From Oscillospiraceae bacterium (GTDB taxonomy: Bacteria > Bacillota > Clostridia > Oscillospirales > Ruminococcaceae): 40,020 nucleotides of DNA. Under the pieces are notes generated by a model. That model was not told where the DNA came from. It was given only the letters and a program-made list of their open reading frames with translations, and did no database searches. A program made the translations under genes and the position numbers. This document shows positions 19,794-22,434 of the stretch, piece by piece (positions within the stretch are counted from its first letter, which is position 1; every line of letters starts with the position of its first letter). The stretch covers positions 1 to 40,020 of the forward strand of contig JAFTZY010000001.1 in assembly GCA_017460955.1 (NCBI GenBank). Direction: 5' to 3'.

Positions 19794-20744
19794 TTACCGG
19801 CGCTTGTGCTTGCTGTGCTTGTTCTTGTTCTGCTTGAGCATCACCCAGGCGACGACAACAGTGCTGAGGATGGAGACGACCGTGGGGAACCAGGTCTGCG
19901 GGACGGGGAGCCCCGTGGTGTTCATGCCGTAGAAGCTGAAGATCATCGTCGGGATGGACATGATGATGGTCACGACCGTCAGACGCCACATGACGAAGTT
20001 CAGGTTGTTGGAGATGACCGAGCCGAAGGCCTCGACCATGCTCGAGATGATGCCCGAGTAGATGTTGCTCATCTCAATGGCCTGCCGTACCTCGATGAGG
20101 ACATCCTCGAGGAGGTCCTGGTCCTCGTCGTAGAGCTTGATGGTGCGGCCGCGCAGGAGCTTTTCGATGGTCACTTCATTGGCTTTCAGGGAGGTCGAGA
20201 AGTACACGAGGGATTTCTCGAGCTCGAGCATCTGGATGAGCTCCTGGTTCTTCATCGCATCGCCGAGCTTCTGCTCCATCACATACGAGGTCTTGTCGAT
20301 CTGCTTGAGGTCCTGCAGGTAGATCGCCGTGATGCGCAGCAGAAGCTGCATCACAAAGCGCGTTTTCATCCGCGTCTGGATGCCCTTGACAACACCGTCG
20401 GCAATGTCCCGCAGGACCTTGTTGTCCCGCAGGGAGATCGTAAAGACATAGTCGTCCGTGATGATGATGCCCAGCGGCACCGTGAAGAAGAGGATGGTCT
20501 CCTCCGAGAGGATCTCGGACATCGCCGTGTCCACGATGATGAGCGTCTGGTCATCCTCGCGCTCGATACGGGAGGACTCCTCCTCGTCGAGGGAGGAGCG
20601 GACAAAACCGCTGTCGAGTCCGTAGTGCTCGATGAGCTGTTGGATCTCCTGCGCCGTGGGATCCACGACCGAGATCCAGCATCCGGGGACGGGCGCAGCG
20701 ATCTGCCGGACACAGCCATCCTGTGTCTGGAAAAAATGGATCAT
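19794..20744 (-). CDS. corA: CorA family magnesium/cobalt channel
   Basis: The protein has 316 residues: a cytoplasmic N-terminal funnel, a long helical stalk, and two C-terminal membrane helices with the selectivity motif YGMN at 272-275, ending in a Lys/Arg/His-rich tail. CorA pentamers admit magnesium. The ATG is 15 nt after the stop of a 26-codon leader ORF. The ribosome site AAAGG (20755-20759) lies partly within a possible stem (20749-20779), so translation may depend on the leader. Confidence 0.95.
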   Translation of the reverse strand: MIHFFQTQDGCVRQIAAPVPGCWISVVDPTAQEIQQLIEHYGLDSGFVRSSLDEEESSRIEREDDQTLIIVDTAMSEILSEETILFFTVPLGIIITDDYVFTISLRDNKVLRDIADGVVKGIQTRMKTRFVMQLLLRITAIYLQDLKQIDKTSYVMEQKLGDAMKNQELIQMLELEKSLVYFSTSLKANEVTIEKLLRGRTIKLYDEDQDLLEDVLIEVRQAIEMSNIYSGIISSMVEAFGSVISNNLNFVMWRLTVVTIIMSIPTMIFSFYGMNTTGLPVPQTWFPTVVSILSTVVVAWVMLKQNKNKHSKHKRR

Positions 20745-20748
20745 GCAT

Positions 20749-20798
20749 ATACCGCCTTTCTACTGCATGCCGGCGGTATCACGGACACCTCCGGCATG
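20749..20798 (-). promoter_or_regulatory. Two overlapping stems that could switch corA translation
   Basis: Stem A pairs 20766-20773 with 20791-20798 (CATGCCGG/CCGGCATG, 8 bp). Stem B pairs 20749-20756 with 20772-20779 (ATACCGCC/GGCGGTAT, 8 bp). They share 20772-20773, so they compete. Stem B covers the GG of the corA ribosome site; stem A lies within the leader ORF. A ribosome finishing the leader would sit over stem B. Confidence 0.55.
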
Positions 20799-20840
20799 GG
20801 TTCTGTTCTGTCTCGCTCGCCCGTAAGGGTCCGTACTCAT
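20760..20840 (-). CDS. 26-codon leader peptide upstream of corA
   Basis: The ORF starts with ATG at 20838-20840, preceded by AGGAGGTGAT, a near-perfect ribosome site 5-6 bases upstream. The product begins MSTDPYGRARQ and ends RDTAGMQ; it is basic and has no signal peptide. It stops (TAG) 15 nt before corA. I do not recognise a named family. By position it resembles leader ORFs controlling Mg transporters in enterobacteria (mgtL for mgtA, corL for Salmonella corA), but those sequences differ. The promoter is unclear: TTGACA at 20867-20872 with TGATAT at 20844-20849 would start transcription after the ribosome site, so one further upstream is needed. Confidence 0.6.
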   Translation of the reverse strand: MSTDPYGRARQNRTHAGGVRDTAGMQ

Positions 20841-20904
20841 GAAATATCACCTCCTGAAAATGGTTTTGTCAATTATGTTTTTGCGGGGGGCGGGTTCTCC
20901 CCTT

Positions 20905-20938
20905 TTAGAAGTTAGAAGTTAGAGATTAGAGGTTAGAA
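20905..20938 (+). repeat. Heptanucleotide tract, about five units
   Basis: The units read TTAGAAG, TTAGAAG, TTAGAGA, TTAGAGG, TTAGAA in register. It sits between the CPBP protease stop and the corA leader region. Confidence 0.85.
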
Positions 20939-20945
20939 TCTACCC

Positions 20946-22106
20946 CTACAGCTCCCCCTGCGTTGCCTCAACGATATAGACCACCGCAGCGCCGACATGG
21001 ATGATGATGCCAAGGAGCATCAGGGGACTGGTCAGGAGCATCCGCAGGCCCCGCTCCTGCTGGGCGGGGGTGGAACGGGGCATCCGTTCCCGGATGAGCA
21101 TGACGAGGAGCACTACGGCACCGATGAGGACAAGACCGGTGTAGAACCAGTTGAGGAGCTCATAGGCCGTGTCAAAGCTGTAGGTCTCACAGAAGGTGAA
21201 GGCCTCGGCAGCGAAATTGACGCACATGTGGACGATGATGGAGGGCACGAGGGAATTGTGCTTGGCGGCGATGTAGCCAAAGAAGCACCCGCCCACGAAG
21301 GCTAAGATGAACTGGGCGACGTTCTCATGCCAGATGCCGAAGAGGAAGGCCGTGGTCACAATGCCAAAGCGCTGGCTGACGCGGGAAAGATTTTTCTGGA
21401 TGAAGCCGCGCATGAACAGCTCCTCGGTGACGGGGGCGACAATGACGCTGTACACGAAGGAGAGGATGACGGCCTTGACGTCCTGGGTGGTGGAAAAATC
21501 CGCCTCGTAGAGCGTGATGTCCACGCCCTCAAAGAGCGTCTCGAGCCCGTAGGCGGCATAGCCGGTGACGGTCTGGATGCACAGACAGATGCAGACATAG
21601 GCAAAGACCCGTGCCGCCGTGAGGTCCCGCGTCTGGAAAAGGGTGGACAGGGGGATCTTGGTGATCCGGCAGCCAAGCAGCGAAAAGAAGAGGTTGGACC
21701 CGCCGATGACAAGGATGGTCAGGGCAAGGTAGGAGGAGGAATTGGTGAGATAATCGCTGACCAGATCGATGTAATTGTCCGGCAGGGTGCCGTTCATGGC
21801 GGTGTCCACGGCAGTCTGGGCAAAGATGTAGACCTCCATGAGGATGAAGAAGAGGAGGTTCATCAGGAGGAAATGTCCGGCCAGAAAGCCGCCGGTGAGG
21901 TTCATGTAGAAGCGGATGCGCCGGCGTTCCTGCGGCAGCGGCATGAGGGGCAGGGAGAAGCCGGGCAGACGGATCTGCGGGAGGACCTCGCCGTAGTCGC
22001 TGGCATATTCATGGAATTCCGTCTCATTCGAGAACGGGTCATGGGGATCCGGATGGGGGGCATCCGCCGAGGCGACCTGCCAGCCGGAGGGATTGGGTTC
22101 AAACAT
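20946..22106 (-). CDS. CPBP family intramembrane metalloprotease
   Basis: The protein has 386 residues with about eight membrane helices and a hydrophilic, acidic N-terminus of about 65 residues. The CPBP/Abi signature is complete: EE at 228-229 with R233 (VTEELFMRGF), His 260 in FGIWHEN, and His 293 in IIVHMCVN. Members cleave within the membrane; bacterial ones are often linked to CAAX-like processing or peptide self-immunity, but this substrate is unknown. No bacteriocin genes are nearby. Confidence 0.9.
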   Translation of the reverse strand: MFEPNPSGWQVASADAPHPDPHDPFSNETEFHEYASDYGEVLPQIRLPGFSLPLMPLPQERRRIRFYMNLTGGFLAGHFLLMNLLFFILMEVYIFAQTAVDTAMNGTLPDNYIDLVSDYLTNSSSYLALTILVIGGSNLFFSLLGCRITKIPLSTLFQTRDLTAARVFAYVCICLCIQTVTGYAAYGLETLFEGVDITLYEADFSTTQDVKAVILSFVYSVIVAPVTEELFMRGFIQKNLSRVSQRFGIVTTAFLFGIWHENVAQFILAFVGGCFFGYIAAKHNSLVPSIIVHMCVNFAAEAFTFCETYSFDTAYELLNWFYTGLVLIGAVVLLVMLIRERMPRSTPAQQERGLRMLLTSPLMLLGIIIHVGAAVVYIVEATQGEL

Positions 22107-22177
22107 GTGGTACTCCTTTTATATACAGCGCAAAGCACTTGGAACTTGCAGCATCAAAGAGGGAGATGGGGGATGAG

Positions 22178-22434
22178 CTTCTAACCTCTTACCTCTCACC
22201 TCTAACTTCTAAAGGCGGGTGCAGGGGGCGCAAGCCCTCCCTGCTTGGGGTGCGGGGCCGAAGGCTCGCAGGGGTTTCCCAGCAATGCTCAGCCCTCCGG
22301 TTCAAGGCTCTTACCTCTTACCTCTCACCTCCAACTTCTAAAGGCGGGTGCAGGGGGGGCGAAGCCCTCCCTGCTTGGGGCGCGGGGCCGAAGGCCCCGC
22401 AATCCTGCTCCCCCTCCCCCTATGGGGGAGGGGG
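22178..22434. repeat. Duplicated ~90-bp intergenic repeat with heptamer tracts and hairpins
   Basis: Copy 1 (22178-22267) and copy 2 (about 22308-22400) each begin with heptamers CTTCTAA/CCTCTTA/CCTCTCA/CCTCTAA, the reverse complement of the tracts elsewhere. Each continues through AAAGGCGGGTGCAGGGGG and GCCCTCCCTGCTTGGGG to GCGGGGCCGAAGGC. Copy 2 is followed by a perfect 11-bp stem CCCCCTCCCCC/GGGGGAGGGGG (22410-22434). The 500 bp between the protease and the Nudix gene hold no supported gene. Confidence 0.85.

Follow-up and report, generated by a model that had tools for sequence, protein, structure and literature searches.

To our knowledge, the sensing of Mg2+ by leader peptides by way of ribosome stability has been described only from enterobacteria. 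In the account of PMC11282234, the EPDP motif of MgtL leads to ribosome drop-off at low Mg2+, exchange of Glu2/Asp4 for Gln/Asn leaves expression of an mgtA fusion undetectable, and control of mgtA by MgtL operates through Rho-dependent termination. The mgtQ ORF of Salmonella, as outlined in PMC8092293, is one on which ribosomes abort and which, aided by its acidic codons and through alternative stems, frees the ribosome-binding site of mgtB. For corL of E. coli and Salmonella, translation of the leader ORF is inversely related to corA expression, and its authors ascribe to it fewer acidic and proline residues than MgtL (PMC11552253). Two further arrangements come from elsewhere: a mycobacterial M-box followed by a conserved small ORF, the peptide of which is said there to be specific to mycobacteria (PMC12810186), and a gammaproteobacterial corA motif, which its source describes as reported only in Gammaproteobacteria and metagenomic DNA (PMC6429828).

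Here we analyze a leader ORF upstream of corA in a 40,020-nucleotide stretch of DNA (the window, meaning the whole stretch analyzed) from an Oscillospiraceae bacterium. As with MgtL, which begins MEPDP in the E. coli MG1655 genome, a short ORF with a strong ribosome-binding site stands upstream of a Mg2+ transporter gene, and the two peptides have Asp4-Pro5 in a common register. The original prediction had called this peptide unrelated to known leaders, a view that the shared dipeptide does not bear out. Pro7 is shared as well in an MxxDPxP subset of corA leaders, and an acidic residue 2 recurs in distant leaders of the form M-[DE]-x-D-P (27 of 125 distinct leaders; 26 Asp, 1 Glu); the window leader has Ser2 together with Asp4-Pro5. 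Unlike the Rho-dependent termination reported for mgtA (PMC11282234), the layout of the corA leaders looks translational. The leaders described here also differ in preceding corA, mgtE or, behind an M-box, an ABC permease gene, and they occur in Ruminococcus relatives and in the wider class and phylum, whereas MgtL is found in E. coli and Salmonella.

In mechanism, the closest known system appears to be mgtQ, and the resemblance would extend to the acidic codons of the leader, to the alternative stems and to the freeing of a Mg2+ transporter gene's ribosome site; mgtQ, however, has 8 codons with Asp2 and Glu5, lies within an operon and uses four strands (PMC8092293), compared with three here. 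The corL ORF likewise precedes corA but is described as Rho-dependent, with a UUG start in E. coli (PMC11552253). The mycobacterial order of M-box and then conserved small ORF (PMC12810186) has a partial counterpart, in that 5 of the 16 leader loci searched have an M-box nearby. The gammaproteobacterial motif is also a conserved RNA region before corA (PMC6429828), whereas the window leader has no Rfam match. Within the open-licence literature, we found enterobacterial and mycobacterial work only and no leader peptide for corA or mgtE of Clostridia, Firmicutes or Ruminococcus, in agreement with the earlier statement that none was known for a corA of this group.

The leader ORF and corA in the window

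All features of the locus lie on the minus strand. The corA gene (19794..20744) encodes a CorA-like Mg2+ transporter of 316 aa, assigned by Pfam (PF01544, E 2e-48); its score on the NCBIfam equivalog, 102 bits, is under the cut-off of 200.75. The host genome, which is 91% complete, has this single CorA match, no match to MgtE and nothing over the family cut-off for MgtA. Upstream of corA, a leader ORF of 26 codons plus TAG (20760..20840; MSTDPYGRARQ..., MSTDPYGRARQNRTHAGGVRDTAGMQ) is preceded by a strong ribosome-binding site, AGGAGGTGAT (20846..20855). Codons 4 and 5, GAC CCT (20826..20831), specify the Asp-Pro that forms the conserved core of the peptide in relatives. Between the leader stop and the corA ATG (20744) there is a gap of 15 nt (20759-20745), and the corA ribosome-binding site, AAAGGCGG (20752..20759), falls within it; the GAAAGG of this site is kept in the 17 + 17 loci aligned below.

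In many relatives, a promoter can be made out by eye 5' of the leader, reading TTGC.A and then TATAAT. It is not evident in the window, where transcription of corA may therefore come from the upstream CAAX-protease-like gene. Intergenic repeats of the form TTAGAAGTTAGA or CTAACCTCT occur at about 20906-20942 and 22170-22200.

Conservation of the leader across relatives

Of 38 genomes of the same genus, 32 carry this corA, the window's own genome counted. We fetched 30 of these 32 loci; one of the two left out corresponds by coordinates to locus L055, which was found through another search and brings the genus set to 31. A leader of the form ATG-x-x-GAY-CC precedes corA in all 31, and under a strict ribosome-site rule 30 have Asp-Pro at residues 4-5, L022 being the exception. 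Examples include MSTDPFGRAEYFN, MSTDPYGRAN, MNIDPDGRAEIF and MTADPCGQC. The start codon, codons 4-5 and the presence of a ribosome site are constant; across relatives, the site is mainly GGAGGTG, also GGTGGTG, GGCGGTG or GGAGGTA. Codons 2, 3 and 6 vary, little is conserved beyond codon 9, and the stop ranges from codon 12 to within corA. The part that is conserved is start-x-x-Asp-Pro and not the whole peptide. A functional small protein was considered and is unlikely, since residues after about codon 9 and the position of the stop vary widely.

The same leader was present in all 80 corA loci taken from named records, among them R. flavefaciens FD-1 and ATCC 19208. As 29 of these duplicate earlier sequences, 51 remain, consisting of L055 and 50 others (L060-L110, a group of 51 loci in which L067 duplicates genus locus L018). 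Asp4-Pro5 is found in the leaders of all 50, in sequences such as MSSDPYGN, MNADPYGN and MNADPYPA; most of these loci are labelled Ruminococcus, and some only Oscillospiraceae, Clostridia or Clostridiales. The comparison of relatives that the original prediction called for thus came out in its favor: the ORF frame, a ribosome site and codons 4-5 recur throughout the genus loci and in each of the 50 others.

We then consider more distant corA genes, in survey genomes that, judging from named relatives, are presumably Clostridia at the class level and Bacillota at the phylum level. For the class, 89 loci were read of 97 further places (8 of 98 places were not fetched). Asp-Pro occupies residues 4-5 of a ribosome-site-led ORF in 27 of the 89; these loci hold 54 ribosome-site-led upstream ORFs altogether, and every other dipeptide at residues 4-5 occurs in at most 3 loci. 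It is this dipeptide count that gives the unselected frequency of Asp4-Pro5, because our table of 125 leaders was selected by start-x-x-GAYCC plus a ribosome site and therefore shows Asp4-Pro5 at 100% by construction. The strict rule finds no leader in the remaining 62 loci, two of which nonetheless show one by eye (L144, one residue shorter; L155, with a weaker ribosome site). Many of the distant class leaders read M-D-x-D-P (MDADP, MDCDP, MDSDP) or KPDP with a GTG start. Outside the class, where 27 of 57 places were not fetched, 5 of 28 corA loci read have a leader candidate, of which L249, 468 nt upstream, is doubtful.

A predicted three-strand switch over the corA ribosome site

Three strands in the window could form two competing stems. 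Strand A, CATGCCGG (20791..20798), lies inside the leader ORF; strand B, ATACCGCCGGCATG (20766..20779), may pair with either of the others; and strand C, GGCGGTAT (20749..20756), is a partner of B. Stem A:B joins CATGCCGG (20798-20791) to CCGGCATG (20773-20766) in a perfect 8-bp helix with both sides inside the leader ORF, and stem B:C joins ATACCGCC (20779-20772) to GGCGGTAT (20756-20749), again over a perfect 8 bp. B:C covers most of the corA ribosome site AAAGGCGG (20759-20752), and the bases at 20772-20773 are common to both stems, which makes them, by prediction, mutually exclusive with one hiding the target ribosome site. Every coordinate of the original prediction held, namely the 26-codon leader, its ribosome site, the 15-nt gap and two 8-bp stems sharing two bases, and its placement of one stem within the leader ORF and the other over the corA ribosome site was correct.

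A helix scan gave stacking energies of -17.6 kcal/mol for A:B and -16.5 kcal/mol for B:C, and the overlapping pair exceeded all 200 dinucleotide shuffles (p = 0.005, the floor of the test). Against the pair speaks the minimum-energy fold of the window leader region, which includes B:C and not A:B and is only mildly unusual (z -1.50), with 17 of 200 shuffles folding equally well; we set this fold aside as evidence. Conservation in relatives is a stronger argument for the leader and its putative switch than such chance statistics. Joint A:B and B:C pairing was better than in shuffles (p<0.05) in 80 of 119 testable leaders, the window included, although these tests are not independent, the loci being kin. 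By group, the positives are 22 of 31 in the genus, 40 of 50 in L060-L110, 4 of 9 in the rest of the family and 14 of 29 among distant loci. The switch is not significant in 39 of the 119, including genus loci L013, L016-L018, L022, L029 and L055; six of the 125 leaders were omitted from the test, four lying >200 nt from the gene and two having no recognised downstream ribosome site. Stem sequences differ from clade to clade, as illustrated by CTGACGGCAT:ATGCCGTCAG with GGCGGCATA in the genus (L026), TCCGGCGGA:TTCGCCGGA with CTGGCGAA in an R. flavefaciens relative (L076) and GGGGAAA:TTTCCCC with GGGGAAAG in L230.

Covariation was assessed in loci picked for clear strands (17 of 50 from L060-L110 and 17 of 31 from the genus), each alignment taking its structure from one member, and both choices favor structure in the figures that follow. 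For L060-L110, A:B has 96.3% paired cells and double-sided changes in 4 pairs and 18 cells, values reached by 1 and 0 of 500 shuffles, respectively; B:C has 94.7% paired cells and such changes in 3 pairs and 8 cells (20 and 0 of 500). In the genus, 89.3% of A:B cells are paired and 13 are double-changed, more than in any of 500 shuffles, whereas the 3 changed pairs do not exceed shuffles (350/500). No measure for genus B:C is clearly above shuffles, because strand C there is a nearly invariant ribosome site. The expectation of covariation in both stems was therefore borne out for A:B in two clades and for B:C in one, and failed for B:C in the window's own genus. Taken with the kept ORF frame, ribosome site and codons 4-5, the covarying stems support the translational-attenuator layout that had been proposed.

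A four-strand model as in mgtQ, with codons 2-10 pairing with the region from A to B, was tried and set aside: although the window offers a candidate pairing of ACGGAC with GTCCGT, only 2 of the 80 loci reached p<0.05. Two local variants were also seen. In the MNADPYPA subgroup (L062, L066, L068, L078, L091 and L093), corA starts with GTG, A:B extends to 13 bp in all six loci, and B:C extends to 15-16 bp in five (not L062). In L070, L071, L076, L098 and other R. flavefaciens-type loci, some 30-45 nt separate, by eye, the corA ribosome site from the start codon, and a hairpin may form in this interval, as if shortening the distance.

A proposed ribosome-based sensing of Mg2+ and its alternatives

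We read the window leader as a ribosome-based Mg2+ sensor and translational attenuator of corA, with a probability of roughly 60%; Mg2+ dependence, ribosome abortion and the direction of control are proposed as follows. At low cytosolic Mg2+, ribosomes with a fresh Asp-Pro N-terminus would pause or drop off near codon 5. A halted or aborted ribosome would leave strand A free, allowing A:B to form, the corA ribosome site to open and corA to be translated, and the additional CorA would restore Mg2+. With ample Mg2+, the leader would be completed, ribosomes would sit on A or cross A, B and sometimes C, and either B:C or the ribosome traffic itself would hold the corA site closed.

The spacing of the strands fits this proposal. 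A ribosome halted at codons 4-5 has its leading edge near nt 28, given an assumed footprint. In a scan that started at nt 28 and could not detect earlier strands, the 80 switch-positive loci have the beginning of strand A 35-83 nt past the A of the start codon (median 42); a ribosome at codons 4-5 should therefore leave A free. With the assumed footprint, a ribosome at the leader stop would be on A in 34 of these loci and beyond A in 45, L156 being the exception. From this geometry, early abortion and completion should be opposite in effect whatever the position of the stop. A T tract follows B:C in only 9 of the 80 loci, so the main effect should be on translation.

In B. subtilis cells lacking EF-P, a (DP)5-type reporter stalls ribosomes, and EF-P or YfmR relieves the stall (PMC11381351), which also speaks for the Mg2+-sensor reading. 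Some features count against it. Of the first five residues in most Ruminococcus-type leaders, one is acidic (Asp4), whereas MgtL has more, and since the B. subtilis stall was observed with repeated DP, a single DP may be too weak alone. The model also has no need of the rare codons GGG7 and CGA8, which are retained in spite of codon usage. Further points against it are the 39 leaders without a significant switch, the 62 distant class loci in which the strict rule finds no leader, and the motif ORFs of L362, L365 and L354, which precede no recognised Mg2+ transporter gene.

Were the leader instead a device for translational coupling, a ribosome translating all of it would melt B:C and re-initiate at corA, and CorA would rise with leader translation. 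The window, with its stop 15 nt before corA and the corA site in between, has a typical re-initiation layout; the stop falls in the B-C loop in 7 of the 22 switch-positive genus loci, and wherever it follows B, the window being such a case, B:C could be opened by a passing ribosome. We nevertheless consider coupling unlikely, given that 25 of the 80 switch-positive loci have their stop ahead of or inside A, so that leader ribosomes there never translate B, that several genus leaders continue out of frame beyond the corA start, and that the position of the stop is variable while codons 4-5 are constant.

The rare codons bear on another alternative, in which slow decoding at GGG7 and CGA8, or at proline, would report amino-acid or codon supply instead of Mg2+. 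Both codons are far commoner in the leaders than corA usage would suggest: Gly7 is GGG in 25 of the 30 genus leaders having Gly7, against 10% usage in corA genes, and in all 44 such leaders of L060-L110, against 7%, while CGA, with a usage of 4.5%, stands at codon 8 of 28 of the 31 genus leaders. They are, however, clade-specific, and Asp4-Pro5 is more widely shared; a single Gly or Arg codon would make a weak sensor, and the downstream genes are mostly Mg2+ transporter genes, not amino-acid genes. The leader itself has neither the run of same-residue codons nor the downstream amino-acid gene of an amino-acid attenuator, and we regard supply sensing as quite improbable. Under the Mg2+-sensor reading, slow codons or a small RNA structure may instead strengthen the pause. 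A mini-hairpin over codons 4-7, CCC-TTAC-GGG (20820..20829), with the rare GGG of Gly7 as its 3' side, is possible in the window, and 30 of the 31 genus leaders could form CCC-N4-GGG, UCC-N4-GGG or GACC-N5-GGTC.

There is a slim chance that the element is an RNA to which Mg2+ or a protein binds, the ORF being incidental. Constraint on the nucleotides of codons 4-8 and the covarying stems would suit such an element, but the ribosome site, the start and the spacing of two codons before Asp-Pro are retained even as codons 2, 3 and 6 change in nucleotide sequence, stem sequences vary between clades, and the window leader matches nothing in Rfam even at E 1. Intrinsic transcription attenuation with B:C as the terminator is very improbable: although 6 of the 22 switch-positive loci of the genus and 3 of the 14 distant ones have a T-rich tract after B:C, none of the 40 from L060-L110 or the 4 others of the family does, and the window holds no terminator-like site at 20700-21000.

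Association with Mg2+ transporter genes and the M-box

Searches blind to the downstream gene tie the motif to Mg2+ transport. A first pattern retrieved 22 matches from 297 family genomes and none with the pattern reversed. Fifteen precede corA, six read MIGDPSG, which we take to be the start of tyrosyl-tRNA synthetase (tyrS), and one (L111) is a 62-codon frame with no corA near. A narrower pattern, applied to 398 phylum genomes, returned the window and one family member only, and the exact Ruminococcus form is therefore local. With a pattern for M-[D/E]-x-D-P that included a ribosome site, 274 class genomes gave 20 matches against 5 reversed controls. All 15 stand-alone short ORFs among them precede Mg2+ transporter genes, 13 corA and 2 mgtE, the 13 being already in the corA survey and so attesting to specificity without adding new cases; the remaining 5 fall at the start of long ORFs or within them. 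The same motif in 219 phylum genomes gave 20 matches against 4 reversed controls, with 3 before corA, 3 before mgtE, 2 before an ABC permease gene (PF00528 in L358; the start in L360 is similar by eye) and 12 others. The last are mostly interiors or starts of longer ORFs, and stand-alone motif ORFs with no recognised Mg2+ transporter gene after them occur in L362 (71 codons), L365 (54) and L354 (114).

Before mgtE, the leader is an exception, being found in at least 3 of the 64 class loci read (L251, L263 and L334), with 7 of 71 not fetched. None of 20 loci of P-type Mg2+ ATPases has a leader, a weak negative given that only 6 of 99 genomes had a match over the cut-off.

Leaders are present and conserved before Mg2+ transporter genes, and we infer that they sense Mg2+. 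On balance, we favor the view that Clostridia and other Bacillota have widespread nascent-chain Mg2+ sensors of the form start-x-x-Asp-Pro, often M-[D/E]-x-D-P, that probably control unrelated transporter genes (corA, mgtE and an ABC permease behind an M-box), some of them stacked behind an M-box, in a register that is independent of MgtL or predates it and that may constitute a general Mg2+ code. If this is true, ribosome-based sensing of Mg2+ would be a general bacterial strategy, applied to two unrelated transporter genes and at times combined with an M-box, and Asp-Pro close to the start would be a general code by which ribosomes report Mg2+. The peptide code needed would shrink to a testable minimum, Asp4-Pro5, and more than 100 natural variants would be at hand for learning what makes a short nascent chain Mg2+-sensitive. 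The mechanism could also explain control of Mg2+ uptake in a host whose genome shows a single corA and neither MgtE nor, over the cut-off, MgtA.

The window has no match to the M-box (RF00380). Among the 16 leader loci searched, an M-box ends 57-69 nt before the leader in L263, L358, L359, L360 and L361, each of which continues with an M-D-x-D-P leader and then mgtE or an ABC permease gene; in L308, the M-box lies about 420 nt before the leader. In some cases, M-box and leader would thus represent two putative Mg2+ sensors in a row. Near two of these M-box loci, c-di-GMP-II riboswitches are found on the opposite strand (L358, 1999-2082; L361, 1719-1801).
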